Source: an uncultured Flavobacteriales bacterium (GTDB taxonomy: Bacteria > Bacteroidota > Bacteroidia > Flavobacteriales_D > Sanyastnellaceae). Taken from it: a DNA stretch of 64,000 bases. Where the stretch lies: contig CALGEI010000042.1 of assembly GCA_937881575.1 (NCBI GenBank), forward strand, positions 1 through 64,000, in the 5' to 3' direction. Made by a program: the position numbers and the translations under genes. Position 1 is the stretch's first letter. Every line of letters begins with the position of its first letter. Below the pieces are notes generated by a model. It saw nothing but the letters and a program-made list of their open reading frames with translations. It searched no databases and had not been told where the DNA came from. Positions 896 through 57,526 of this stretch are shown in pieces.

Positions 896-1999
896 TTGAT
901 CAACCACATGCCACAGCCCATTCCGCCCTTCACTTGTACGTATTCACCGCAGGTGCCTGAGTTGCTTTACGATTTGGGTTGCAGCATTGCGTTATCGACG
1001 TACCAAGCAGGTAAATTGGTCATTATTTCGGCGAAAGATCGCCAGTCCTTGAGCCAGTTGCCACGCTCCTTCGAAAAAGCCATGGGGGTCGCCGAAGATC
1101 CCCATCAGGACAAGCTGGCGATCGCATTTCGGGATTCCGTCACCGTCTTTCGCAACTCATCGCAGTTGGCTGAATTTTATCCAAAATCGCCGGGAGTCTA
1201 TGATGCGATGTACATGCCGCGGTCTACGTATCACACCGGTCCGTTGGACATTCATGATGTGCATTTTGATGCGGACGGCGGATTGGTTGCTGTGAACACC
1301 CTGTTTTCGTGCATCATGCGGGTGGACGAGGCCTACAATTTTACACCGATTTGGACCCCGCCATTCATTGATAAAATGGCCCCAGAGGATCGCTGCCACC
1401 TCAATGGATTGGCCATGGAAAACGGAAAACCCCGATACGTAACGGCTTTTAATCAAGGCAATAGTGAACGAAGCTGGCGGGAACGCATCACCGAGACGGG
1501 CGTGGTCATGGACGTCGAAACGAACGAGGTGGTTTCGGAGGGATTGGCCATGCCGCACTCACCAATGATTGTGGATGGTGAGCTTTATGTGCTCATGTCC
1601 GCTACGGGTGAATTGGTGCGCATTGACCGTTCAACAGGGAAGCGGGAAGTGGTCGCAGCATTGGGTGGTTTTGTGCGCGGCATGTCGCGGTGTGGCGACT
1701 ACCTCTTCATTGGCGTTTCGAAAATTCGAGAAAAATCCAAGACGTTTGGAAAATTGGCTCATCAGTTTCCGCAAAATGAAGCCGGAATTGTCATCTTACA
1801 CTTGCCTACAGCGAGCAAAGTGGGGGCCATTCAGTATCGGGCCTCTGTGGAAGAGATTTATGATGTGCACATTCTCAATAACAAACGACGTCCCAACATC
1901 ATCAACCCGAAAGATGCCATACATTCGGATGGGATTACATTGCCTGGATCAACTTATTGGCGGCAAAACAAAAAAGACTCCGTGAACCATGAATCGTAA
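896..1999 (+). CDS. TIGR03032 (DUF4915)-like protein
   Basis: A 367-residue protein, length typical of the TIGR03032 family of conserved proteins of unknown function. Matching features are the N-terminal S-T-Y-Q-A-G-K-L motif, a central H-L-N-G-L-A with following P-R-Y-V-T-A-F-N, and repeated beta-propeller-like blades (V-V-A-A-L-G-G-F-V-R-G-M). No signal peptide or membrane segment is visible, so it is probably cytoplasmic. The frame opens with TTG at 896; an ATG at 908 (M-P-Q-P-I-P-P-F) is an equally good start. Its 3' end overlaps the next gene by 11 bases, implying translational coupling with an exported FG-GAP protein. In other bacteria the family sits in peptide or polysaccharide-related contexts, but its biochemical role is not known to me. 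Confidence 0.7.
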   Translation: MINHMPQPIPPFTCTYSPQVPELLYDLGCSIALSTYQAGKLVIISAKDRQSLSQLPRSFEKAMGVAEDPHQDKLAIAFRDSVTVFRNSSQLAEFYPKSPGVYDAMYMPRSTYHTGPLDIHDVHFDADGGLVAVNTLFSCIMRVDEAYNFTPIWTPPFIDKMAPEDRCHLNGLAMENGKPRYVTAFNQGNSERSWRERITETGVVMDVETNEVVSEGLAMPHSPMIVDGELYVLMSATGELVRIDRSTGKREVVAALGGFVRGMSRCGDYLFIGVSKIREKSKTFGKLAHQFPQNEAGIVILHLPTASKVGAIQYRASVEEIYDVHILNNKRRPNIINPKDAIHSDGITLPGSTYWRQNKKDSVNHES

Positions 2000-3533
2000 C
2001 ATCCAACACTTTGCTCGGAAAAGACGGCAGCTGGAACTCGCTGTGCAGCGCCTATCTGGGTGTATGGCAGAAACCAACGGTCAAGTAACAGCCGACATGC
2101 AGCGCCTCATTCAACAAGTCAAGGCGCTTGTAGCAGAGCTGAGTCATGTGTTTTCCAGGGCGTATTTGAGACGCGTGCTGGGAGGGGTGGCGCTTGTCAT
2201 CGGTTCGGCAACGAGCACGGAGTCCATGGCGCAGTCATTTGCTCCAGCCATCACAAATCCATTTGGTGCCGCAGAGCAAAACAACCAAATGGCATGGATC
2301 AATTTTGAATTGGTCGATATGGATGCGGATGGCGATTTGGACATGATGGCGGTGCAATTTCCAACGGATTATTCATATTATAACGCTGTCAATCTGGCCT
2401 TCCAAGAAAATACAGGCATACCGGAAGCCGCTGCATTTGGTCCGATCCAATCAGGCAATCCATTGGGGCTCAACCCCCTCATTGTGAACGGATGGGACGT
2501 CGTGTATTCCGCCGGAGGATTGGGCATTGATGTAGTGGATTTAGATGGCGATGGTGATTTCGACGTCATCATGGGTGCGCGCTATATTTACGGGTACAAC
2601 TATTCGCCCTATGCTTATCTCTATGAAAGCAATGCGTTGTTTTGGTTGGAAAATGTGGGGACACCTGCAGTTCCGCAGTTGTCAGCGCCATTGGAATTGA
2701 ATCCTTTTGGGTTTGACTTGGGGGCGCTTTCAGCAGAAGAGGAGACGTACAACTTCGACTATGAATTTGTGGACATCGATGGGGATGGAGATTTTGATTT
2801 GATTGGAACCACATTAGAATACATGGATGGTTCCTATGGGTACTTTCATCGATTTTTTTGGTGCGAAAACACGGGTTCTGCGACGAGCCCAGCGTTTGCG
2901 CCAATCGAAATGAACCCATTTGGTTTGGCTGCGGAGTCGGGGGCGATGTTGAATATGGGGCTCTCCTTTTCGGTGGAGTCTGCCGATCTCGATGGCGATG
3001 GGGACATGGACTTGATTCAAGCCGTGTATTTTGATGCTGAAACGCCCTATTCAGAAGTGCATTTCTTTGAGAACCTGGGGTCTTCAACAGAACCAAACTT
3101 TGAATCAGCAGTCGTGAATCCATTTGGTTTGCAAGCAGGCATGTCAACCGGCGTTCGTTCTGTGGCATTCGGCGACATTGACAACGACGGTGATTTGGAC
3201 TTCTTCGCCAACGACTTCCTGACGGCCACTTATTCCTACGGAGAATCCTACACGATGGAATTCCAGGAAAACGTCACTCCCGCATCCATTCGTCACAACA
3301 CCCAACCCCATTCGATTGGCGTATACCCCAACCCCACAGCGGAGTTCATCCGATTGGATATGGGCAACCTGAAGGTGCTGGATGTCCATGTTTTGGATGC
3401 CCAAGGCAAAGAGGTGCTGCACTGCAATCCGCAGGATCGCCAATTGCACGTTGGCCATTTGCCATCAGGCACCTACGTCCTTCGCGCACAAACATCCCAG
3501 GGGATGACCAGCAGCCGTTTTGTGATTTTGTGA
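1989..3533 (+). CDS. FG-GAP/VCBS-type repeat protein with T9SS sorting domain and extended N-region
   Basis: A 514-residue exported protein. Residues 1-58 are a charged, helix-prone region (K-R-R-Q-L-E-L, Q-R-L-I-Q-Q-V-K), followed by a hydrophobic core (about 62-77, V-L-G-G-V-A-L-V-I-G) and an A-Q-like cleavage site near 82. The mature part carries five Ca-binding-type loops (D-x-D-x-D-G-D-x-D), each preceded by an N-P-F-G-L/F-like phrase, as in FG-GAP/VCBS beta-propellers. The last ~75 residues are a T9SS type A domain beginning G-V-Y-P-N-P and ending S-S-R-F-V-I-L. The start at 1989 overlaps the upstream stop by 11 bases, supporting coupled expression and the long N-region. Likely surface-bound or released through T9SS; ligand unknown. 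Confidence 0.85.
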   Translation: MNRNIQHFARKRRQLELAVQRLSGCMAETNGQVTADMQRLIQQVKALVAELSHVFSRAYLRRVLGGVALVIGSATSTESMAQSFAPAITNPFGAAEQNNQMAWINFELVDMDADGDLDMMAVQFPTDYSYYNAVNLAFQENTGIPEAAAFGPIQSGNPLGLNPLIVNGWDVVYSAGGLGIDVVDLDGDGDFDVIMGARYIYGYNYSPYAYLYESNALFWLENVGTPAVPQLSAPLELNPFGFDLGALSAEEETYNFDYEFVDIDGDGDFDLIGTTLEYMDGSYGYFHRFFWCENTGSATSPAFAPIEMNPFGLAAESGAMLNMGLSFSVESADLDGDGDMDLIQAVYFDAETPYSEVHFFENLGSSTEPNFESAVVNPFGLQAGMSTGVRSVAFGDIDNDGDLDFFANDFLTATYSYGESYTMEFQENVTPASIRHNTQPHSIGVYPNPTAEFIRLDMGNLKVLDVHVLDAQGKEVLHCNPQDRQLHVGHLPSGTYVLRAQTSQGMTSSRFVIL

Positions 3534-8623: not shown

Positions 8624-10618
8624 TTACGCTTTGATCACGCGCACAAGGGGGAAACTCCGATCGCTCGGACGTCCACTTTCTTGCAGTTGCATGAGGTAAA
8701 TGCCTGAAGGCAATGCATCAAGTGACCACTGGAAAGGTGTTGTTATCATTTGCTTTAATAAAATCAAATTCCCCTGCAGGTCGTATAGGGAAACATCCCA
8801 CCATTGCCCTGCTTCAGGAGCCTCAATTGTGAGGGTGTGACGGAATGGATTGGGGTACGCGACAAAGGACTCAAGCCCTGTTGTTTCCAGCACATGGACA
8901 TAGGTCCATGGGGCGCTCAAAAACGAGGGGCATCCAGGAAAATCACTCACCTCTACCGCGTACAGGCCTGCGCCTGGATTCAGTAGAATGCTGTCATTTT
9001 GCGCGTTCAATACCAAATCGTTTTGGTACCACTGATACCACGTGTATGACCCGTAAGCAGTGAGGTGACCTTCAATCGTCTGGTTGATTTCGACGCCGTC
9101 GATCGGCCAGCAAACCAAGAGCGAATCACTGGCGATTGGACAGCCCAATGTGTCGATGCTTGCCACGCGATACCAGCTGCTTTCTGCAGGGAAAAACAGG
9201 GCGTTCTCTCCGCCGTAAAGCGTGTCAGTCGAGACGTCATTTTGACTCCAGACATAAAGAGCGAAACCGTCGTCGGTAGCCAGGTATTGCGGTAAGCCAT
9301 TTTGTGTTAGCAATTCCAGTGGTAGGGACGCGTCGGGATGGCAAAATAAGATGGAATCGCTCCAGGCGCTGCATCCAGATTCGGTCGTCCCTTCGACGGT
9401 GTACCAACCGGTGGCATCCGGCACGAATTCAGGCGTCATGCCCGATGATGCGACCTGCACGCCTTCGAAAAGCCAATTGTAGAGGCTGAGGTCGGGATTT
9501 GAACAGCTCAACGTGGTGGGGCTGGTCTGGAATACGCCGACCTCAGGTGCGCTGTAGACTTGGATGATCAGGGTGTCGGTTATGTCCACGAGGTCATTGA
9601 CGCCGATGTTGGCGATGGCATTGCTCGACCCGGCTACCAATGGGATGGCGCCGGCGCTCGTGGGATTGAAGGTGGTCGAACCAAGGTTGTCGTCCCCATC
9701 CAAGAGGTCCTCGTCATAAAATGAGATGGTGTAAGGCGGATTGCTCATGACCACGCTCAGCCCGCTCCAAGTATTCGAATTGGAATCGTCTGCCGTGCTG
9801 GACGTGTAGACGTTGGTTCCGCTCGCATCAGTCAAAACGAAGTAGGGATCCGGTGGTGTGAAGAAATCATCCCATCCACCCCCGCCGGTTGAATTCAGGA
9901 TGAGTTGCTCCAATATCCATTCGGAAATCAGTGTGTTGAGGGTCACCGTGTAGGTACCTGGTGTGGCATAGAAAACGCTATCAACTTGAGCCGAAGAGGC
10001 GGATTCACCATTGCCAAGATCCCAAGCATAGGTGGAAGTTTGCGATTCCGAACCAGTCAATGACGCGGCAAAATCCACCCACAAGGAATCGCAGCCTGCG
10101 GCAGCGGAGTAAGCAAAGGTGGATGTTCCCCCGGCTCCAGGATTGATGATCAACGTGTAGGAGAAACTCTCGTTGACCACTTGCTCGATACCAAAGGCCG
10201 ACGCTATGGCCGACACACTGATGAGCATCTCATAGACACCAGTAAGCAGGGGTTCACCGCAGATTGTTGCGCAACCGCTCGTTTGCCCGTTGGATGGGAA
10301 ATAGGTGCCGTCTGGATCGTCCAATTCCACCTCCATGCCGAGGGGGGTTCCCGTGATGCTGGTGACGGCAACGGACAGGAGCGAAGCGGTCACGCCGGAC
10401 CCTGGATCGACGATGTTTTCGGGCAGATAGAAAGTGAGGGTCTCTTCATACCATTCTCCCGTTGCGCCTTCTGGCAATGAAGCTGGGCAAATGGCGGGAA
10501 ATCCATCCGTTGATGTACACGCCGGATCGGCAACACAGTCCGCGCATTGAGCACGGGCTCCAAAAGGAATGAGCCAGAGAAGGCAAAGGAGCGCTGCGGC
10601 CGTCCGTTCGATATTCAC
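8624..10618 (-). CDS. T9SS-exported protein with PKD and C2-like domains
   Basis: About 664 residues from a GTG start at 10618, chosen because it places a signal peptide (A-A-A-L-L-C-L-L-W-L-I-P-F-G-A-R-A-Q) at the N-terminus and avoids overlap with the divergent gene at 10681. Residues ~170-227 form a PKD domain (T-Y-A-W-D-L-G-N-G-E, P-G-T-Y-T-V-T-L). Residues ~227-353 look like a C2 fold: D-P-Y-F-V-L, then N-T-W-S-G-L, then I-S-F-Y-D-E-D-L-L-D-G-D-D-N-L-G. Two or three Ig-like segments with Cys pairs follow, each phrased like a question-and-answer repeat (S-D-S-[IL]-L-[FV]-C). The C-terminus is a T9SS type A domain (V-A-Y-P-N-P-F). Probably a surface adhesion or matrix protein; target unknown. 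Confidence 0.85.
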   Translation of the reverse strand: MNIERTAAALLCLLWLIPFGARAQCADCVADPACTSTDGFPAICPASLPEGATGEWYEETLTFYLPENIVDPGSGVTASLLSVAVTSITGTPLGMEVELDDPDGTYFPSNGQTSGCATICGEPLLTGVYEMLISVSAIASAFGIEQVVNESFSYTLIINPGAGGTSTFAYSAAAGCDSLWVDFAASLTGSESQTSTYAWDLGNGESASSAQVDSVFYATPGTYTVTLNTLISEWILEQLILNSTGGGGWDDFFTPPDPYFVLTDASGTNVYTSSTADDSNSNTWSGLSVVMSNPPYTISFYDEDLLDGDDNLGSTTFNPTSAGAIPLVAGSSNAIANIGVNDLVDITDTLIIQVYSAPEVGVFQTSPTTLSCSNPDLSLYNWLFEGVQVASSGMTPEFVPDATGWYTVEGTTESGCSAWSDSILFCHPDASLPLELLTQNGLPQYLATDDGFALYVWSQNDVSTDTLYGGENALFFPAESSWYRVASIDTLGCPIASDSLLVCWPIDGVEINQTIEGHLTAYGSYTWYQWYQNDLVLNAQNDSILLNPGAGLYAVEVSDFPGCPSFLSAPWTYVHVLETTGLESFVAYPNPFRHTLTIEAPEAGQWWDVSLYDLQGNLILLKQMITTPFQWSLDALPSGIYLMQLQESGRPSDRSFPLVRVIKA

Positions 10619-10680
10619 ATTCCAAAGATGCGAAAATGTGATTGACTTTTGAATGTGCTCTTGGAGTGTACATTGCGTCC

Positions 10681-11616
10681 ATGAAATGTCCATCTACCCT
10701 ATTCTTAGCTTCAGCCCTTCTGTTCTCATGCTCTGCGGCGACATTCGCACAAACCACACCGATCATTGATGTGCAAGGTGAGGTTGAAACCTCGCCACTG
10801 GAAGGACAGCAAGTCACCGTTTCAGGCAAAGTCACAGAGTATTTTGGTGATACGTTTTACTTGCAAGATGATTATGGTGCCTGGAATGGGCTTTTCATCC
10901 ATGGCCAAGACATCGTGATCCCAGGCAACCCACCCTACTGGAGCGGTGAGCGTCAACCGGAAGTGGGCGATGTCCTGACACTTATAGGAACAGTCGCAGA
11001 GGTGGATGGCAATACGGAATTGTTGGATGTGTCACTCGTTGAATTCGTAGACTTTTGGAATGCCACGCCAGCAGGAGTTTGGCTCACAGCAGATGCTTTT
11101 CAAGATGAACAATACGAGGGAACTCGAGTTCGCATTGACGCGGCTACCATTTTGACCTCCCCCGACGCCAATGGTTTTTGGACGGTCACCGACGGCACGG
11201 CCGAACTCACTTGTTGGGGCGTTGACACCAGTGATGCGGGCAACGATGAAGATCCAGACGGCCCAACACCGGGTGATATCTACCAGATTTATGGAGCGCT
11301 GCATCAACGGACTGATGATTATGTGCTGCACGTCGGTGACATCGACGTTCTGGCATTGAGCGTGGAGCGCTTATCGGCAGTGCGCGCTGAAGTTTTCCCG
11401 AATCCGGCCTCCGATTTGATCACCTGGAATTTCCCTGACAGCAGGTTGCGCAATCTTCGGATTGCAGACGCCCGGGGCCGCTTGATCTATGAGGTAAAAT
11501 TCCATTCGTCCACATTTGTATGGGATGCAGCTCGCCTTTCGAGAGGAACGTATGCATGGACTTGCTCATCTCCAACGGAGGCAAATCACGACAGAGGCCA
11601 TGTGGTGTTGAACTGA
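10681..11616 (+). CDS. OB-fold (DUF5689-like) T9SS-exported protein
   Basis: 311 residues starting M-K-C-P-S-T-L-F-L-A-S-A-L-L-F-S, with a signal peptide cleaved around A-T-F-A-Q. Two OB-like segments follow (V-S-G-K-V-T-E-Y-F-G-D-T-F-Y-L-Q-D-D and G-T-R-V-R-I-D-A-A), similar to secreted nucleic-acid-binding-type OB domains fused to exonucleases in Bacteroidota, though no nuclease domain is present here. The C-terminal ~80 residues are a T9SS type A domain (V-F-P-N-P-A-S-D-L). It is divergent from the PKD/C2-like gene, with about 60 bases between start codons. The role could be DNA or ligand binding at the cell surface, which is inference. Confidence 0.8.
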   Translation: MKCPSTLFLASALLFSCSAATFAQTTPIIDVQGEVETSPLEGQQVTVSGKVTEYFGDTFYLQDDYGAWNGLFIHGQDIVIPGNPPYWSGERQPEVGDVLTLIGTVAEVDGNTELLDVSLVEFVDFWNATPAGVWLTADAFQDEQYEGTRVRIDAATILTSPDANGFWTVTDGTAELTCWGVDTSDAGNDEDPDGPTPGDIYQIYGALHQRTDDYVLHVGDIDVLALSVERLSAVRAEVFPNPASDLITWNFPDSRLRNLRIADARGRLIYEVKFHSSTFVWDAARLSRGTYAWTCSSPTEANHDRGHVVLN

Positions 11617-12131: not shown

Positions 12132-14963
12132 ATGAAAGGACTGCGCTTCACCCCACTTCGTTCCGTTTTGAACGTTTTGCAATTCTTTGTACTTGTTAGC
12201 TTGTCGTTTGGAGCGTACGCTCAGGCAGGAACGGAGTATGTTACGAAGAATCTTGACGGTCTGGTTAATTGGACGGACGCAAGTACCTGGGTTGGCGACG
12301 TTGTTCCTCCAGATAGTTCGGATGTGACCATCACAGATTGCGATGTTACGTTAACGGGTGACATCAATGTAGGAAGTCTTACCTTGTCTAATGATGGTAC
12401 TTTGGTGACCGGCTCTCACACGATTACGGTGAATGATATCATCGGTGTGAATTTGGCCGCTTTTGAGTGCTCTGCCTGCACAGTCATCTTAAATTCGTCT
12501 GTTGCTCTTGCTGACAGTACTGGTGACCCCACAGTTGCAGGGTCTGCGGACATTCAGTTTTGGGATGTGATCATTCCCGCCGGTAAGTCCGTCGATTTTG
12601 GAGCAGGCGGTGTCAATGTGGCAGAGAGTTTTATCAAAAACTCTTTGAAACTAGAAGGGGGTGCTGTCGTCGTGAATCCGCCGTACTATGGTTACATTGG
12701 AGCTGGTGATGCTTATTTCACTGGAGGAACATTGATTTATGACGAAACGTACACGGTAGGAACGGAATGGTCGGCTGTTGGTTCTACGAATGCCCTGAAA
12801 ACAGATGTCCTCGCAACGGGCAAGGGCGTTCCTGTTAAAGTCGAAATTGTTGAAGGTGCGACGCTTTCATTTGGGGCAACTGCGGAAAGCTATTCTTGTC
12901 TTGATGATTTGACCGTGGATGGCAGTGGAGTGCTGAACATGTCGAGCATGACAGGAGATTTAACGGTCGGCGGTCACTTGAATGTTACTGGAGCCTCTGG
13001 GCAGTTGAACTTGGCCACCATGGAAGGTGATCTCATCGTGAATGGCAATGCCACGATTGGAGGGGTGTCCGGACAATCGGTCACATTGAATCTTCCAACA
13101 TCGGATGCAACGCAATATGGAGCTTTGGATGTTCAGGGTGATTTGACCCTGGGGCACAATGGCGGCAATGCTTTGACAATTAACGGTGACGAAGGCAATT
13201 TGCGGGTCGCTGGAGACTTCACTCTGAACACAACAAGTGGTTCTGAGTTCGGTATGGTAAAATTTGACGGCTCCATTGCACAGACCTTCTCTGGCAACAA
13301 GATGACGGTAGATTCATTGGTTGTTGCAAACACATTGAATGACGTTTTGACCGATTCAGATGTGATTTTCACGGACAGTGTTGACATTGCACCCGGAGGT
13401 GTTTTCAATCCAATTGAAGGTTCGGTTCATGTAGGCGGCTCCTTCGCTATGAGATCTGATGCCACCGGGACGGCGCGTATTGCGACTCTCGCAAACAGTG
13501 GCGCAACCTCGGATGTATCGGGTGGCGACATCACCTTTGAGCGTTTCATCTCAACTTTATCTGGCATGAGCTGGCTCAATATTGGGAATTATGTAACGGG
13601 CAGTCACACGGTGAATGATTTGAAGAGCCAGTTCACAGGGTTCAGCCTATTCTTCAAGTACATCGAGACGAATTTCTTCACGAACAATAATGCCAGTTCT
13701 GCCGGGACAGGGCCGTTCCAAATCCCATCGAATGGTGACGCGTTAGAGGAAAGTGATTTCGGCTATTTGGTCCTCCGAGCTCAGTCTGCAGACGAGACTT
13801 TATCCTTGAAAGGGGGTTACAACACGGCACAAGTGGATTTGACGTTGTCTCTTTCGACTCCGGTCTACGGTAGTGGCGGATATCACTTGTTGACGAACCC
13901 ATTTCCATCGCCGATTGACGGAAATGAATTCCTCGCAGACAATGGTCTCGCTTACTACTACATGGTGGATAACAGCACAGGCAATACGTTGGTTTCCGGA
14001 ACGGATGCACCTGCAACAATCGATATTGGTCAATCATTCTGGGTCCAGACGGATGCCAACAACAAGGCCGTATCGTTTCAATTGGACGATATAACACACG
14101 GGTCGAATTCATTTGTGCGCGACGCGGACATGTACGAAGAGGGCATGGTTGGAATTCGTGCATCACAGACCGATGGACGTTTTGGTCATTCATTCATTCA
14201 GTTCCATGAGTTGAGTACTCCCGAGCATGAATATGAATTTGATGCCATGCACCGAGCAGGTAGTTCTTTGAGTCCAGACGTATACACGCGCTCTGAAGGA
14301 AATGTAGCGGATTTGGCAATCAACTCGATCGGTTCAATGGAGAATACAGAATCCATCGCTTTGATTGTGCGAAGTGGGTCAGAAGGGACGGTGAGTCTCC
14401 AATTGGATGATCTTTTCGAAATGCCTGAAGGTTTGTGTGCGCTCATTGAGGATATGGAAACAGGTGATATTGCTGCTTTAGGTGGGGAGGCGATGGTGAT
14501 AGAATTGGAGCCGGCCACATTGTATGAAGACCGATTCCAACTGACATTTATGAGCACTCCGGTGTTCGAATCTTCTGTTTCTTACTGCGGCGGCGGTGTC
14601 ATCCACTTCAATGGCGAGAACAATGAATCTTGGAATATATCTTGGTCGGATGAATCAGGCGATCTGTCGGGAGAAGGTTGTGTTACAGGGTTGGATGTTG
14701 GAAATTATGTTGTAACAGGTGCTGACCCTGTATCGCAGTGTGTTGTGCATTCAAACGTTGCAATAGACGCGGTTTGTTTAGGCGATTTCAATATCAACGG
14801 AACCCGAGACATCGTTGATTTGTTAACCTTATTGGTTGAACTTCAACCGGCTGCGGGTGCGACGGATGGTGCATATTTGCAAACTGATTGTGATTGTGAC
14901 GGCGCCATGACGACTTCAGATTTGTTGTTGTTCTTGCCGTACTTTGGTGTTGCTTGTGAGTGA
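12132..14963 (+). CDS. Large secreted beta-repeat protein with C-terminal dockerin-like module
   Basis: 943 residues with a signal peptide (V-L-V-S-L-S-F-G-A-Y-A-Q-A). Residues ~30-110 resemble the G8-like opening of Bacteroidota surface proteins (N-W-T-D-A-S-T-W, then D-V-T-I-T-D-C-D-V-T-L). A long parallel-beta-type region with repeated G-D-L-T-V-G-G-H-L, G-D-L-I-V-N-G-N-A and G-D-F-T-L-N follows to ~450. A conserved segment with L-L-T-N-P-F-P-S-P-I-D-G-N-E-F is at ~585. Unlike neighbouring exported proteins it has no YPNP-type T9SS domain. It ends in two EF-hand-like loops (D-F-N-I-N-G-T-R-D-I-V-D and D-C-D-C-D-G-A-M-T-T-S-D), each followed by L-L-x-[LF]-L. The small Cys-rich gene 29 bases downstream is probably in the same transcript. 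Confidence 0.8.
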   Translation: MKGLRFTPLRSVLNVLQFFVLVSLSFGAYAQAGTEYVTKNLDGLVNWTDASTWVGDVVPPDSSDVTITDCDVTLTGDINVGSLTLSNDGTLVTGSHTITVNDIIGVNLAAFECSACTVILNSSVALADSTGDPTVAGSADIQFWDVIIPAGKSVDFGAGGVNVAESFIKNSLKLEGGAVVVNPPYYGYIGAGDAYFTGGTLIYDETYTVGTEWSAVGSTNALKTDVLATGKGVPVKVEIVEGATLSFGATAESYSCLDDLTVDGSGVLNMSSMTGDLTVGGHLNVTGASGQLNLATMEGDLIVNGNATIGGVSGQSVTLNLPTSDATQYGALDVQGDLTLGHNGGNALTINGDEGNLRVAGDFTLNTTSGSEFGMVKFDGSIAQTFSGNKMTVDSLVVANTLNDVLTDSDVIFTDSVDIAPGGVFNPIEGSVHVGGSFAMRSDATGTARIATLANSGATSDVSGGDITFERFISTLSGMSWLNIGNYVTGSHTVNDLKSQFTGFSLFFKYIETNFFTNNNASSAGTGPFQIPSNGDALEESDFGYLVLRAQSADETLSLKGGYNTAQVDLTLSLSTPVYGSGGYHLLTNPFPSPIDGNEFLADNGLAYYYMVDNSTGNTLVSGTDAPATIDIGQSFWVQTDANNKAVSFQLDDITHGSNSFVRDADMYEEGMVGIRASQTDGRFGHSFIQFHELSTPEHEYEFDAMHRAGSSLSPDVYTRSEGNVADLAINSIGSMENTESIALIVRSGSEGTVSLQLDDLFEMPEGLCALIEDMETGDIAALGGEAMVIELEPATLYEDRFQLTFMSTPVFESSVSYCGGGVIHFNGENNESWNISWSDESGDLSGEGCVTGLDVGNYVVTGADPVSQCVVHSNVAIDAVCLGDFNINGTRDIVDLLTLLVELQPAAGATDGAYLQTDCDCDGAMTTSDLLLFLPYFGVACE
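14781..14960 (+). other. Dockerin/F-hand-like module (coding segment)
   Basis: Encodes two calcium-loop-like motifs with the dockerin spacing D-x-N-x-N-G-x5-D and D-x-D-x-D-G-x5-D, each followed by a hydrophobic helix (D-L-L-T-L-L, D-L-L-L-F-L). It occupies the position where a T9SS domain would be expected. Confidence 0.6.
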
Positions 14964-14992: not shown

Positions 14993-15346
14993 ATGAAAGC
15001 GTATTTAAATTTTGTGGTTTTGGGGATTTTCTTGACTGTAGCATCCCAAGGTTTCACACAACCATGCCCAGGAGGGTATACACCATCGGGTAATGCAGTA
15101 ACAGATTGTGGTGGCGATCTCACTCCATGTTGTCACATTTATAATGCATGCAACGGTCCTTACTCAGGGTGCAATAACTTTGACACGGGGTGTGATGGTT
15201 GTGACCAAACAACAGGTTGTGCCCTGTCATGTACCCCCATTGACAGTGGTGTGATGTTCTTGCTGCTAGGCGGAGGATTGTTTGGAGCAGTGATGCTGCA
15301 ACGTCGCAAGGAGTTGGAGCTGGTGATGGAGAGAGCGAACAGCTAA
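14993..15346 (+). CDS. Small Cys-rich secreted protein with PID-type C-terminal sorting tail
   Basis: 117 residues: signal peptide (1-22), then a Cys-rich region with about 11 cysteines between residues 25 and 80 (C-C-H-I-Y-N-A-C, G-C-N-N-F-D-T-G-C-D-G-C). The tail has P-I-D-S-G at 82-86, one hydrophobic helix (87-102, with L-L-G-G-G-L-F-G) and a basic stop R-R-K at 104-106. A P-I-D-x-G / helix / Arg-rich tail resembles the PID-CTERM sorting tail seen in Bacteroidota, thought to be handled by exosortase-like enzymes. No such enzyme is encoded here. Alternatively it is a simple type I membrane protein. It follows the 943-residue protein by 29 bases and ends at a strong terminator. Confidence 0.75.
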   Translation: MKAYLNFVVLGIFLTVASQGFTQPCPGGYTPSGNAVTDCGGDLTPCCHIYNACNGPYSGCNNFDTGCDGCDQTTGCALSCTPIDSGVMFLLLGGGLFGAVMLQRRKELELVMERANS

Positions 15347-15746: not shown

Positions 15747-17807
15747 TCAGCACTCATCTCCAAACATCGCCAAGAACATGAGGATGTCGGTAACGCCGAC
15801 AGAACCGTCGCCGTTGATGTCCGCGGCTGAGCAATTCGCGGTGCAACCAAAGTAACCGAGTAAGATCAACAGGTCTGAAATCTCAACGGTCCCGTTGTTG
15901 TTGACGTCTTCAGGACAGCTCAAGGCATTGCCATCGCAATCGAAGCCTTGCTCTTGATAGGTGCAATTGCCCTCGTCCGTAGCATCCGCGTTGTAATTGC
16001 AGGCCAAAGCGTCTTGGCAGCCTGTGACTTCGTCACCGTCGCACACCCCATCGCCGTCAGCGTCACCGTCGACGATGGAACCAGAGCCATCGGTCTCACC
16101 GGAACACGTTTCGCAGCCCGTAGCCAAGAAGCAGGAGTTGTCATCGTTTGTAGCAGCAACATTGAAGTTACAGGCCGTTGTATCCATGCAGCCCTCCACA
16201 TCTTCTCCAGGCAATCCGAGGCAGAAATTGGTCAAGCTGAGCGTGGCATCCCAGGTCCCGGAAGATGTTGTTGAGCTGTAACCATTGACGACTTCCAAAG
16301 TCCATACTCCCGCACCGGTCAAGCCGAATGAATTGAGGTTGACACTATGGGTATAGGTTCCTTCAGCACCCACGTTCCAGTCGCCAGGCCAATCACTCGC
16401 GATGGTGTAACCCAAGGTCAGGTCATACCCTCCGATTTCAATGCACGATCCGTTCGGATCACAGATTCCAATCAGAAGATCACCGGCCCAACTCGATCCC
16501 GCAGAGGCGGAATACGCCACGCTAACGTCCAATTGATCGAGTCCAGTGCTGCTCGTCGCCTCCATTGTAAACGTTTCACTGGAAGTGCCGGTGAGGTTGT
16601 TGACGGCAAAAGCCCAATCGCTGGTGCAACTGCACGGAACGCCGTCCTGCGGCATAATACAAGACCCATCGTCCTCCGTAGCATCGGCGTCGTAATTGCA
16701 CGCTTCCGAATCGGTACAGCCCTGACAACTGAAATCGCAGCTGCCGTCGTCCTCAGTGGCTGCGCTATCGTAATTGCAGGCGGTAGCATCTGTGCAGCCA
16801 CATCCTATCGTACACGCAGGAGCACATCCGTCTGAAGTCGTCAAGCTCGCCCGGAACCCGCCGGGAGCAAACAACGCTTGCATGCGCGTTTTCTGGCCCG
16901 CGGTGAACAGGTTCATGCACGCATCGTCCGAATAGTCCATGTAGTTCTGTACCATGTCCGTGCTGCTGCAACTCACGTGACCCGTAGCGCAACCGAAATT
17001 TGAAGCATCGGAATTCGGCGTGTCCGCTACCTGATCGTCCTGGTTGCAGTTTCCATCCCCCCAGATGTGATAGAGATTCAACCAGTGGCCCACTTCGTGC
17101 GTGGCCGTTCGACCGAGGTTAAACGGAGCGGTCGCGGTCCCGACGTCACCAACATACCGGTAGTCACAGACTACGCCATCGGTTGACGCGGGTCCCCCCG
17201 GAAATTGCGCATAGCCTAAAATTCCCCCTCCGACATTGCAAACCCAAAAATTCAAATACGACCCCGTTGGCCAAGCATCCGAGCCACCTGAACTCGAGAA
17301 CTTCACATTGTCGGATGTTCCGAACGAAGAGACAGAAGTAGAAACCCGCAGAATGCCGTCTGTTGGATTGCCTTGTGGGTCGTTGGTCGCCAAACAAAAC
17401 TCCACCTCTGAATCGGCTGCCTGCGACCATGTGTTGTCGGCGTCGCTGTTGAGGCGTCGGAAGTCGTCATTCAGAATTTGCAGTTGCGACAGAATTTGAG
17501 CATCGCTAATGTTTTGGGTAGCGTTGGCATAAACCACATGGAATACCACCGGAATGGTCACAACCGTGCTGGCTTGATTTGAACGTTGTTCGCCCGACTG
17601 AGATTCCCAATGCTGCGTTTGTTGCTCAATCCGCGAACGCATTTCTGAGAATTTCGTTCCTCCCATCATTTCGACATACTTGTCGTGCGAAGCACAGGTA
17701 CGGTGCGCTGGCACCCCCTGCGCATCGGCAGAATTTGGAGCCATATTCTGAGCAGAACAAATACCTGCAATCAAACAAAAAGCGAAAAGGAAATGGAAGT
17801 GGCGCAT
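15747..17807 (-). CDS. Secreted M43 (cytophagalysin/pappalysin) metalloprotease with ACN repeats, P-like domain and dockerin-like tail
   Basis: 686 residues from ATG 17807, which puts the signal peptide (F-H-F-L-F-A-F-C-L-I-A-G-I-C-S-A-Q) first; an ATG at 17834 adds nine residues. The protease domain (~80-325) has the zinc motif H-E-V-G-H-W-L-N-L-Y-H and a Met-turn (N-Y-M-D-Y-S). Two Cys repeats (T-A-C-N-Y-D...D-D-G-S-C) follow at ~336-383, then a proprotein-convertase-P-like beta domain (~396-529: G-D-L-L-I-G-I-C-D-P, G-V-W-T-L-E-V-V-N). Two more ACN repeats with a TSP3-like D-A-D-G-D-G-V-C-D-G come next. Two dockerin-type loops (D-V-N-N-N-G..., D-I-N-G-D-G...) end the protein. There is no T9SS YPNP domain. 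Probably an extracellular zinc protease. Confidence 0.88.
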   Translation of the reverse strand: MRHFHFLFAFCLIAGICSAQNMAPNSADAQGVPAHRTCASHDKYVEMMGGTKFSEMRSRIEQQTQHWESQSGEQRSNQASTVVTIPVVFHVVYANATQNISDAQILSQLQILNDDFRRLNSDADNTWSQAADSEVEFCLATNDPQGNPTDGILRVSTSVSSFGTSDNVKFSSSGGSDAWPTGSYLNFWVCNVGGGILGYAQFPGGPASTDGVVCDYRYVGDVGTATAPFNLGRTATHEVGHWLNLYHIWGDGNCNQDDQVADTPNSDASNFGCATGHVSCSSTDMVQNYMDYSDDACMNLFTAGQKTRMQALFAPGGFRASLTTSDGCAPACTIGCGCTDATACNYDSAATEDDGSCDFSCQGCTDSEACNYDADATEDDGSCIMPQDGVPCSCTSDWAFAVNNLTGTSSETFTMEATSSTGLDQLDVSVAYSASAGSSWAGDLLIGICDPNGSCIEIGGYDLTLGYTIASDWPGDWNVGAEGTYTHSVNLNSFGLTGAGVWTLEVVNGYSSTTSSGTWDATLSLTNFCLGLPGEDVEGCMDTTACNFNVAATNDDNSCFLATGCETCSGETDGSGSIVDGDADGDGVCDGDEVTGCQDALACNYNADATDEGNCTYQEQGFDCDGNALSCPEDVNNNGTVEISDLLILLGYFGCTANCSAADINGDGSVGVTDILMFLAMFGDEC

Positions 17808-17897
17808 GATGAAAGCAATTGGGTATGCTTTCAAGATATCAATAAATACGACGGAAACCCCTTCGATCGGGCTGAAAGTCGGGCGTGGTATTCAGAT

Positions 17898-54280: not shown

Positions 54281-55504
54281 TTATTCTCCGGAGGTTAGGG
54301 TGTCAATTTGTTGCTGAAGGGACAGGATGGTTTGCTGCATGAGAACGACAGTGTTCAATAAGGAATCAAGGGTGCTGCCAATTGGCATCTCACCAATGAA
54401 GACTTCACCTCCAATTTCTGCAGCTCCTTGAAGGCGCAGAGTACCGTTTGATTGAACGTCAAGGGCATTGGAGCGCATGGCGTCGTTTGAGCCATTTCCA
54501 ACAGCGAAAACAACGTTGGCTTGCTGCGTTAAGTTGAATTGGCCGACAACAAGTGAATTCTCTTGATCAGCAATGGTCTCGTTTCCGAATGCCGAGGAAG
54601 CGGTTGCTGTGGCCACAGTGGATCGACCAGAAGTACGGCTATAAAGGCCTGCTGCGATCGTTCCATACCCGCTAGCATGACTCGCATAACCACCCGCGAT
54701 CGTTTCGAACCCTTCAGCGTGAGCTAAGTCACCTGAGGCAATGGTGAGCTGGCCTTCGCTATGTGCAGCGGTTCCGCTCGCTTCTGTTTGACGGCCTTCG
54801 GTATGACTATACAGACCCAAGGCATTGGTTTGAAACCCTTCAGCATGCGCTGCAGTTGAACCGGATACCGTCCCATAGCCTTCAGAGTGGGCATAGTTTG
54901 ATGTAGCGTTCGTATTGTAGCCTTCAGCGTGAGCAGCAAGGGCTCCCGCTTGGGAAAGCATCCCTTCGGCGTGGGAAGCGGTTCCGCTGGCCGTGGTGCC
55001 TTCACCTTCGGCACTTGAACAAGTGGCACTGGCGAGCGTTTGTCGATTCTGAGCGTTGGAAAAAGCTCCCGTTGCGCTCGTGTTGGTGCCTGAGGCGTGA
55101 GCATAGGTTCCTGTAGCTGTGATATTGTTGCCCTGAGCGAAACGTTGCATGACGCGCATGGACCCGTTGCTCCAGGTCCAAGTGCTGGATGGATTTCCCC
55201 AAATAGAATCTTGGATGGAAGCCAGACCCAAAGAGTCCCTTGCAGCAACTGCAGTTGTAGCTCCCGTTCCACCGGAACCAATCGGAATGATTCCCTGAGG
55301 ATCAAAGGATTCTCCGTAAATGGGTAAGAATTCAAGCAGGTCGCCCACCTCAATCAAACCGTCATTGTTGCTGTCTGGGTTGTAAGGAAGCCCACCGTAG
55401 TCAGTGTCTTGTCCGATTCCTTCTGCAGCTAGGAAGCAAAAGAGGAAAGTACCGAGAACACGAATGTTTAGATGCTGAAGGCAGGTTGAGGAGAGGGAGC
55501 GCAT
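54281..55504 (-). CDS. Secreted YadA-head-like beta-roll protein with EF-hand-like N-region
   Basis: 407 residues from ATG 55504 (ATG 55528 also possible). Signal peptide (V-L-G-T-F-L-F-C-F-L-A-A-E-G-I-G-Q), then a single dockerin-type loop (D-S-N-N-D-G-L-I-E-V-G-D-L-L-E-F-L) at ~44-62. A G-I-I-P-I-G-S-G-G-T-G-A segment leads to thirteen in-register 14-residue repeats (~130-311) with A-H-A-E-G or variants, then a fibre-like region and a coiled coil (L-N-T-V-V-L-M-Q-Q-T-I-L-S-L-Q-Q-Q-I). No T9SS domain, YadA barrel or lipobox is present. Likely a trimeric fibre. Confidence 0.82.
   Translation of the reverse strand: MRSLSSTCLQHLNIRVLGTFLFCFLAAEGIGQDTDYGGLPYNPDSNNDGLIEVGDLLEFLPIYGESFDPQGIIPIGSGGTGATTAVAARDSLGLASIQDSIWGNPSSTWTWSNGSMRVMQRFAQGNNITATGTYAHASGTNTSATGAFSNAQNRQTLASATCSSAEGEGTTASGTASHAEGMLSQAGALAAHAEGYNTNATSNYAHSEGYGTVSGSTAAHAEGFQTNALGLYSHTEGRQTEASGTAAHSEGQLTIASGDLAHAEGFETIAGGYASHASGYGTIAAGLYSRTSGRSTVATATASSAFGNETIADQENSLVVGQFNLTQQANVVFAVGNGSNDAMRSNALDVQSNGTLRLQGAAEIGGEVFIGEMPIGSTLDSLLNTVVLMQQTILSLQQQIDTLTSGE
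54533..55117 (-). repeat. Thirteen 14-residue (42-bp) YadA-head-like repeats
   Basis: Each repeat encodes about A-[ST]-G-x-x-[AS]-H-[AST]-E-G-x-x-T-x without insertion or gap; DNA copies have drifted, so the periodicity is protein-level. In trimeric autotransporters each repeat adds one turn of a left-handed beta-roll. Confidence 0.8.
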
Positions 55505-55594
55505 GTCATGGGTTTTACAGAATGACAAGGTACAAAAGGAGCCGCTGAAGAGAGCTTGAGCTTTGTCCCCTTCAATCGGAGCAAAAGCCAGGGG

Positions 55595-57526
55595 TCAGCG
55601 AATGATGACCCAAGGAATGACTTGAAATTCCAGGTTCGAACGAATCCGCACGAAATAAGTGCCTGCATTGAGGACACCCCCATTGAGTTGTACCCGCTGC
55701 TTTTGATGGGAATTCATTTGGCAAATGATGGGTTCCAAGGCGAATGTACCGTCAGCATGAAAGACTTCTATGGTCACAGGTCCTGTGTTTTGGCTTGTCC
55801 AGTCCAAGAAAGCCCATCCATTCCCGGGGTTGGGATGGAGCGTCAAGTCAGGGTCATTGTGAGTGCGCTCGTCCGAGACATCCACCGCAGAGCGTTGCTG
55901 AAACCGCGATGCATGGTGAACATCATCTGATTCGAAGGCGGTCAATTCTGATTGTTCAGGACATTGTTCGCCCAAATAAGTGATGGTTTGGATGAAGACG
56001 CCCGTATTGCCTGAACAGTCTTGAGCGGAATGTGTCCGTTCAAGGACGAAGGCATTGCCATTCAAGGTGTCACCAGAGATCAGTGCCTCTGAAAAAGACA
56101 AACTCAAGGGATCCTCGCAAGCATCTTCGAAAGCCGCCGTACAAGGCAATGGAATTTCCGGTTCCTCCCCATCCAAAGCACAAAGAGTGATTTCCGCGGC
56201 GCAATTACCAGTCCAAATTGGAGATGATTCGTCCATGCGATAGAAGGTCTGAACTGCTTCAGTCAAGAGTCCACAAGCGGGATTCAGTGTAGAAAAGAAG
56301 TGGGCTGTTGATTCGGACCCGCATGGGACAGTGTTGACACCGTCGGAACTTAAATCAATGACGACATCTCCTGTCATGCCCAATACCGGAACTCCGAGAA
56401 CCCTTCCTTCCCAGGCAAACCAGCCGCCGAACCCATAGCTACACGTGCTGCTATTCGCTCCGACTCCCAGTTGAAAGCGCTTGTTTTCGTTGAGTGGCAT
56501 GTGGCTTAACTGCAAATAGGAATCAGCATATCCACCTTGACCAATTAAGAAGCTTTGGTCTGCTTTCAAGCGGTAAACCGACACCTGCTCAGGATTGAGC
56601 TCACATCCGTTTGCAATGACCAGGCCATGCGCTTCATCTGCATCGAGCCACTCACTCGCAATCTGAGCATCTTCAAAGGTTAAATGAACCGACCATTTGA
56701 GATTGGGATTCAACTCATTCGTGACTTCTCCTGTTAAGGTGGCCAAACCATTGGTGAACCGCGTGAGAATCAAAGGGTAGGATTCTATGAAAAAATCACT
56801 TTCAGATAAACCAAGCGCCGTCAAGCCGAAGATGCGGATTGCTCCATCCGTGCCGGCGCCATCCCCCGTAAAACCAGCATTGACGATCACAGAATCTCGG
56901 ATGTCGGCTGTGAACACTGCAACCGAAAGTTGCTCTTCTGAACAGCTTGAAATAGCCTCCATGGATTCCGAAAAGATCAAAGGCAATTCATCTGTACATT
57001 CTACGAATTGATCTGATGCATCCGAAATAAGAATCGGCTCACAACCGTCACAACCCGTTGGATTGCCCTCGCAATCAAAATTGGGAATGGCGTAAACACA
57101 GTTTGTCAAACTGGAGAAATCAGCATTGGGATCAAAATTGCAAGCGGTGAAATCGGAACATCCAAAACAAGTGTAAACACAGGCAGCTTCCACTGCGATA
57201 GAGGCGTCTTCATCAAAATTGCAAGCAGTGGCATCCATGCACCCCGCGCAAGTCGTAAAGTTGCAAGTGCCGTTGTTGGGATACAGGGCGTCCGGATTGA
57301 AATTGCACGCATCCTCATCCATGCACCCCACTAGGCAAGAGAGGTATTCACAAGATCCGTCATCTGTTGTTGCAGAAGCGACATAGTTACAAGCCGTGAC
57401 GTCAGTGCATCCATCAAGTAAAACAAGGGGACACAATTCCGCATCGACATCAAATCCAGAGGAATTGAAGGCCAAGATTAGACCAAAGGTTAGCAACAGA
57501 AAACTGCGCAACGAAACTATCATCAA
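55595..57526 (-). CDS. T9SS-exported protein with four ACN-type Cys repeats
   Basis: 643 residues. Signal peptide (F-L-L-L-T-F-G-L-I-L-A-F), four Cys repeats at ~39-160 (G-C-[TMS]-D-x-x-A-C-N-[YF]), then several hundred residues of beta-rich unknown sequence with acidic Cys pairs. The C-terminal ~80 residues are a T9SS type A domain (T-L-H-P-N-P-G-N-G-W). The same ACN repeat occurs in the M43 protease at 15747-17807. Confidence 0.87.
   Translation of the reverse strand: MMIVSLRSFLLLTFGLILAFNSSGFDVDAELCPLVLLDGCTDVTACNYVASATTDDGSCEYLSCLVGCMDEDACNFNPDALYPNNGTCNFTTCAGCMDATACNFDEDASIAVEAACVYTCFGCSDFTACNFDPNADFSSLTNCVYAIPNFDCEGNPTGCDGCEPILISDASDQFVECTDELPLIFSESMEAISSCSEEQLSVAVFTADIRDSVIVNAGFTGDGAGTDGAIRIFGLTALGLSESDFFIESYPLILTRFTNGLATLTGEVTNELNPNLKWSVHLTFEDAQIASEWLDADEAHGLVIANGCELNPEQVSVYRLKADQSFLIGQGGYADSYLQLSHMPLNENKRFQLGVGANSSTCSYGFGGWFAWEGRVLGVPVLGMTGDVVIDLSSDGVNTVPCGSESTAHFFSTLNPACGLLTEAVQTFYRMDESSPIWTGNCAAEITLCALDGEEPEIPLPCTAAFEDACEDPLSLSFSEALISGDTLNGNAFVLERTHSAQDCSGNTGVFIQTITYLGEQCPEQSELTAFESDDVHHASRFQQRSAVDVSDERTHNDPDLTLHPNPGNGWAFLDWTSQNTGPVTIEVFHADGTFALEPIICQMNSHQKQRVQLNGGVLNAGTYFVRIRSNLEFQVIPWVIIR
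57047..57412 (-). repeat. ACN-type Cys repeats (four copies)
   Basis: Four ~30-residue units with G-C-x-D-x-x-A-C-N-[YF] and a second Cys pair; only the first retains the full D-D-G-S-C ending. Confidence 0.75.

Follow-up and report, generated by a model that had tools for sequence, protein, structure and literature searches.

Surface proteins of Bacteroidota are as a rule identified by a T9SS tail or a lipoprotein signal, and this locus raises the question of what a dockerin-like module does on secreted proteins that have no T9SS tail. Three such proteins are encoded in the window, the 64 kb stretch analysed here, which lies on contig C42 of the host genome (2.59 Mb, 99% complete). The original prediction held that the module is an alternative export, retention or assembly tag. 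A six-frame regular-expression scan of the whole window for the motif D-x-[ND]-x-[NDS]-G-x(3,7)-D followed by a hydrophobic helix returned exactly five matches, all in frame and all corresponding to units of these three proteins, which bears out the predicted arrangement of two C-terminal pairs and one N-terminal single unit.

The first protein (943 amino acids; 12132..14963, plus strand) ends in a paired module at 14775..14960 on the same strand, comprising a first clasp Cys (14775-14777), unit 1 (14784-14834), unit 2 (14886-14936) and, one residue short of the stop, a last Cys (14955-14957). This module is a two-Cys form without linker cysteines, and the Pfam scan gave no domain above cut-off for the protein. 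The second protein, encoded on the minus strand (15747..17834), is a secreted M43 (pappalysin-like) metalloprotease (PF05572, E=2.4e-16). Its paired module (15750..15917, minus strand) is a four-Cys form, with C1 at 15915-15917, unit 1 at 15858-15908, unit 2 at 15771-15821 and C4 (15750-15752) as the last residue of the protein. The distance from the final unit to the stop is 1 residue in the 12132 protein and 0 in the M43 protease. The protease also carries Cys-rich GCTDxxACNYDxxAxxDDGSC repeats, which in this genome are often found ahead of a dockerin tail and may belong to the same surface architecture. The third protein (54281..55528, minus strand) is secreted, contains YadA-head-like repeats and has an N-terminal single half-dockerin, the F-hand unit of which lies within NPDSNNDGLIEVGDLLEFLPIYGESF (55325..55375, minus strand; E=7.6e-8 with a family profile). 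Pfam and NCBIfam scans detected no T9SS tail on any of the three proteins, the NCBIfam scan of these three also covering the type B CTD (other proteins were checked for the type A CTD). Conversely, the motif scan found no dockerin module in the four T9SS-tailed proteins of the window (1989-3533, 8624-10693, 10642-11616 and 55595-57526), in agreement with the prediction.

Between the two genes with C-terminal modules lies a small protein (14993-15346, plus strand) with the C-terminal sequence CTPIDSGVMFLLLGGGLFGAVMLQRRKEL. It matches NCBIfam PID_CTERM NF046080 (E=3.2e-5, 23.6 bits, cut-off 26), and its tail probably represents another kind of sorting signal (exosortase-type) alongside the dockerin and T9SS tags.

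To what family does the module belong? An AlphaFold2 model of the paired module had a mean pLDDT of 85.6, and its top Foldseek match was the type II dockerin 2y3n_B (E=1.9e-4, TM 0.83/0.83), with other dockerins in the next ranks. A sequence profile search again placed 2y3n_B first (E=4.5e-8). As modelled, the C-terminal module has a true dockerin fold. It shares with the type I/II cellulosome dockerins of PF00404 the two F-hands, each a DxNxDG loop plus helix, but differs from them in its terminal Cys clasp and its many single-unit forms. The M43 protease alone of the three window proteins passed PF00404 (E=8.8e-7). The scores of the 12132 and 54281 proteins, like those of most single-unit copies, lay below the PF00404 gathering threshold (22.9 bits); these two proteins were missed by both Pfam and NCBIfam and were picked up by the family-specific profile. 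A TSP3 repeat was rejected as the identity of the module, as the only such match was weak, sub-threshold and on another stretch of the M43 protease.

By sequence comparison, the nearest named family is NCBIfam dockerin_GC (NF041540), with the module just under its cut-off. Paired modules of the host genome matched it over the full length (1-67/67, E 4.6e-6 to 2.8e-5) with scores of 24-27 bits (best 26.9), 2-5 bits under the 29-bit cut-off, single-unit modules matched half of it or not at all, and the NCBIfam scan reported neither the 12132 nor the 15747 protein against it at E<=1. The two families are alike in having a paired dockerin-like domain, which in NF041540 is named as an anchor ("GC-type dockerin domain-anchored protein"). 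NF041540 is presumably also characterised by an extreme C-terminal position, and 36 of 41 proteins here end 0-4 amino acids after the module. In the literature searched, we found no paper using the name dockerin_GC and none describing the present tag.

These 41 proteins come from a survey of the host genome with a family profile (A2) built from 20 C-terminal units. The profile gave 62 matches at E<=1, of which 46 were at E<=1e-6, compared with 83 T9SS tail matches. The module lies 0-4 residues from the stop in at least 36 proteins and elsewhere in at least 5, both numbers being lower bounds because DNA was retrieved for only part of the profile matches. Inspection of the module-ended proteins of the host genome revealed no T9SS motif near the end. 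This distribution bears on the possibility that the module is a structural calcium-binding cap, a TSP3-like spacer that stabilises the C-terminus and has no sorting role. Extracellular proteins gain stability from calcium-type loops and disulfides, and N-terminal and internal examples of the module exist. However, a TSP3-like repeat found anywhere, which the original prediction named as its refutation, does not describe a module at the extreme C-terminus of 36 of 41 proteins. Moreover, on orthologous proteins the module replaces a sorting domain instead of accompanying one, as described below, and with a neutral cap those orthologues would have no known signal for export across the outer membrane. 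We consider a purely structural role quite unlikely.

The cysteines of the paired module were numbered in order: C1 precedes loop 1, C2 follows helix 1, C3 precedes loop 2 and C4 lies at the end. Among 66 paired modules, two of which had C1 assigned by eye owing to a register shift of the regular expression, all four cysteines are present in 56, C1 and C4 only in 8, and C2 and C3 only in 2 (L312 and L317); a lone member of a pair was not seen in any of the 66. One further paired module outside this set (L021), filed by the script among the single units, is without the last cysteine. Both end cysteines, before the loop and at the end, occur in 77 of the 83 single-unit candidates. The joint loss of cysteines as pairs points to a disulfide between C1 and C4, which would tie the module's ends together, and to a second one between C2 and C3.

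The N-terminal unit of the 54281 protein is a real module that belongs to another class than the C-terminal tag: it is a Cys-free subtype located directly after the signal peptide, and it is not to be pooled with the C-terminal form. The consensus of this subtype, NPDxxxDxxIxxxDLLxxLxxFG, is found in the 54281-55528 protein (minus strand), L331 and L213, and in the first two of these it precedes YadA-head-like repeats. A protein on another contig (L337, G000:C166:1071-1913) combines a T9SS tail with an internal, ordinary dockerin-like stretch unlike the clasped C-terminal type; this stretch was not reported by the family profile at E<=1.

The original prediction drew on the mutual exclusion of module and T9SS tail. 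The exclusion holds, since none of 67 dockerin-tailed proteins has a type A T9SS CTD and no protein with a clasped C-terminal module was found to carry both, where many such proteins would have spoken against the prediction. It proves little by itself, however, since the two tags occupy the same place, the extreme C-terminus, and could hardly coexist. Mutual exclusion in one genome was therefore rejected as standalone evidence; the informative test is the exchange of tails between orthologues. Protein ends were classified with dockerin and T9SS tail profiles for complete proteins of three unrelated cargo families, which were picked as widespread and dockerin-tailed in the host genome and hence give no measure of exchange frequency. 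Dockerin-tailed and T9SS-tailed members numbered 26 and 39 for the M43 peptidase, 25 and 34 for endonuclease I, and 16 and 27 for ASPIC/UnbV, for a pooled count of 67 dockerin tails, 100 T9SS tails and none with both. Another 20 proteins were left unclassified, some being truncated, frame-shifted or masked and some clearly of one type by eye. The M43 relatives with a T9SS tail belong to Saprospiraceae, Chitinophagales and other Flavobacteriales, and the public ones with a dockerin tail are uncultured Flavobacteriales MAGs, among them Crocinitomicaceae bacterium TMED114.

Quick trees, which included rows classified by eye, contained at least 4 tail changes for ASPIC (strongly supported branches require at least 3 of these) and 3 for endonuclease I (supported branches require only 1). 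One pair of orthologues in a single fully supported clade aligns end to end until the tail, where L297 continues into a T9SS tail and L299 into a Cys-rich repeat and a dockerin. As judged from these trees and alignments, the tails have been exchanged repeatedly on orthologous proteins.

In a set of 150 genomes from the order, expansion of the module is limited to the window's family. A profile search gave about 26 to at least 54 scored matches per dockerin-rich genome of this family (genera g1, g2, g3, g5, g8, g11-g15 and g17), 0-7 in its dockerin-poor genera (g4, g6, g7, g9, g10 and g16) and 0-2 per genome in other families of the order. Across 296 genomes of the phylum, many paired modules were present in just two, both members of the same family, and a single weak match was found in one other genome. 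Module density and T9SS tail density are inversely related, with a Spearman coefficient of -0.57 for 37 genomes of the family and -0.84 for the 24 genomes under 3 Mb, where candidate counts serve as proxies and the genomes are not independent, phylogeny being uncorrected. In one relative (G042), giant proteins (1000-3100 amino acids; L261-L266, G042:C2 728000-800000 and 2746000-2780000) are encoded in runs, and many of them end in near-identical dockerins; they carry glycine-rich stretches and GCTDxxACNYDP repeats.

What might recognise the tail? A true dockerin fold closest to type II dockerins would fit a cellulosome-like assembly in which enzymes attach to a scaffold through their tails by cohesin-dockerin pairing. 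A search for a cohesin-like partner, as suggested with the original prediction, gave no PF00963 match at E<=1 in the host genome and no cohesin tracking the module in 45 relatives, in which cohesins are few, weak and uncorrelated with it: they are present in dockerin-poor G037 and G069 and absent from dockerin-rich G019, G042, G078 and G009. A cohesin too divergent for Pfam may exist. The three tested cargo families are not polysaccharide-degrading and, in contrast to the cellulosome systems, the cargo tested here is not carbohydrate-active. Such an assembly is very unlikely. The neighbourhoods of dockerin clusters C54, C178, C58, C92, C118 and C25 and of the giant G042 clusters, judged by eye as ORFs only, have no shared receptor-like neighbour; dockerin genes are scattered, as are T9SS or PEP-CTERM cargo.

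Each of the 46 family genomes searched contains T9SS tails together with PorV-family proteins and C25 peptidases, so that the system as a whole was not displaced by the module. Outside the window, a PorU-type C25 peptidase adjoins a PorV-family gene near the contig end (G000:C42:279912-283037). The dockerin tail could accordingly represent a T9SS signal of a new class, with the cargo passing through the same T9SS translocon and the module being read, in place of the Ig-like CTD, by T9SS components or an adaptor. The module shares with the type A CTD (TIGR04183 / PF18962) its position, its protein families and its Sec-exported cargo, and a PorU-type C25 peptidase, the PorV family and many T9SS tails persist in all dockerin-rich genomes. 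Yet the dockerin is unrelated to the Ig-like CTD in fold and sequence and is without the YPNP motif, and extra PorV-family or C25/PorU paralogues are absent from the dockerin-rich genomes (2-5 PorV-family matches, versus 3-6 in dockerin-poor genomes). We therefore regard a new T9SS signal as unlikely.

The reading that we favour, with a probability of a little under 60%, is that the C-terminal disulfide-clasped dockerin is a lineage-specific alternative sorting or anchoring tag of Sec-exported surface proteins, which replaces the T9SS CTD. Its basis is the dockerin sequence and modelled fold, the strict C-terminal position, the paired cysteines, the lineage-restricted expansion and the repeated exchange. 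The predicted tag role is well supported for the C-terminal form, with at least 36 strictly C-terminal proteins and repeated tail replacement on orthologues; the N-terminal unit of the 54281 protein falls in another class. The proteins would be exported by Sec and cleaved by signal peptidase I, after which the two F-hands would bind calcium. The C1-C4 disulfide would pin the module's two termini to each other, and a C2-C3 bond would form in the linker of paired modules. A dedicated putative receptor outside PF00963 could then dock the rigid end-module, placing or holding the protein at the outer membrane surface. A role of the clasped dockerin equivalent to that of the T9SS CTD is the most economical reading, with the route and the receptor as we infer them. 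Counting against a tag are the proteins that bear the module internally or N-terminally. In addition, the T9SS machinery is kept in every genome, and the route may therefore be the T9SS itself. The dockerin-tailed proteins may also stay periplasmic. A stronger version of the alternative tag, in which a second, T9SS-independent surface-display route with its own clasped-dockerin receptor arose in one Flavobacteriales family and took cargo from the T9SS protein by protein, is possible as a whole but doubtful.

Here standard profiles, which miss most copies, would overlook dozens of exported proteins in each genome. The repeated swap of unrelated C-terminal tags on orthologous cargo is a natural experiment, which makes a common role of both tags, whether export, anchoring or both, directly testable, and the dockerin tail would offer a bait for finding the receptor.
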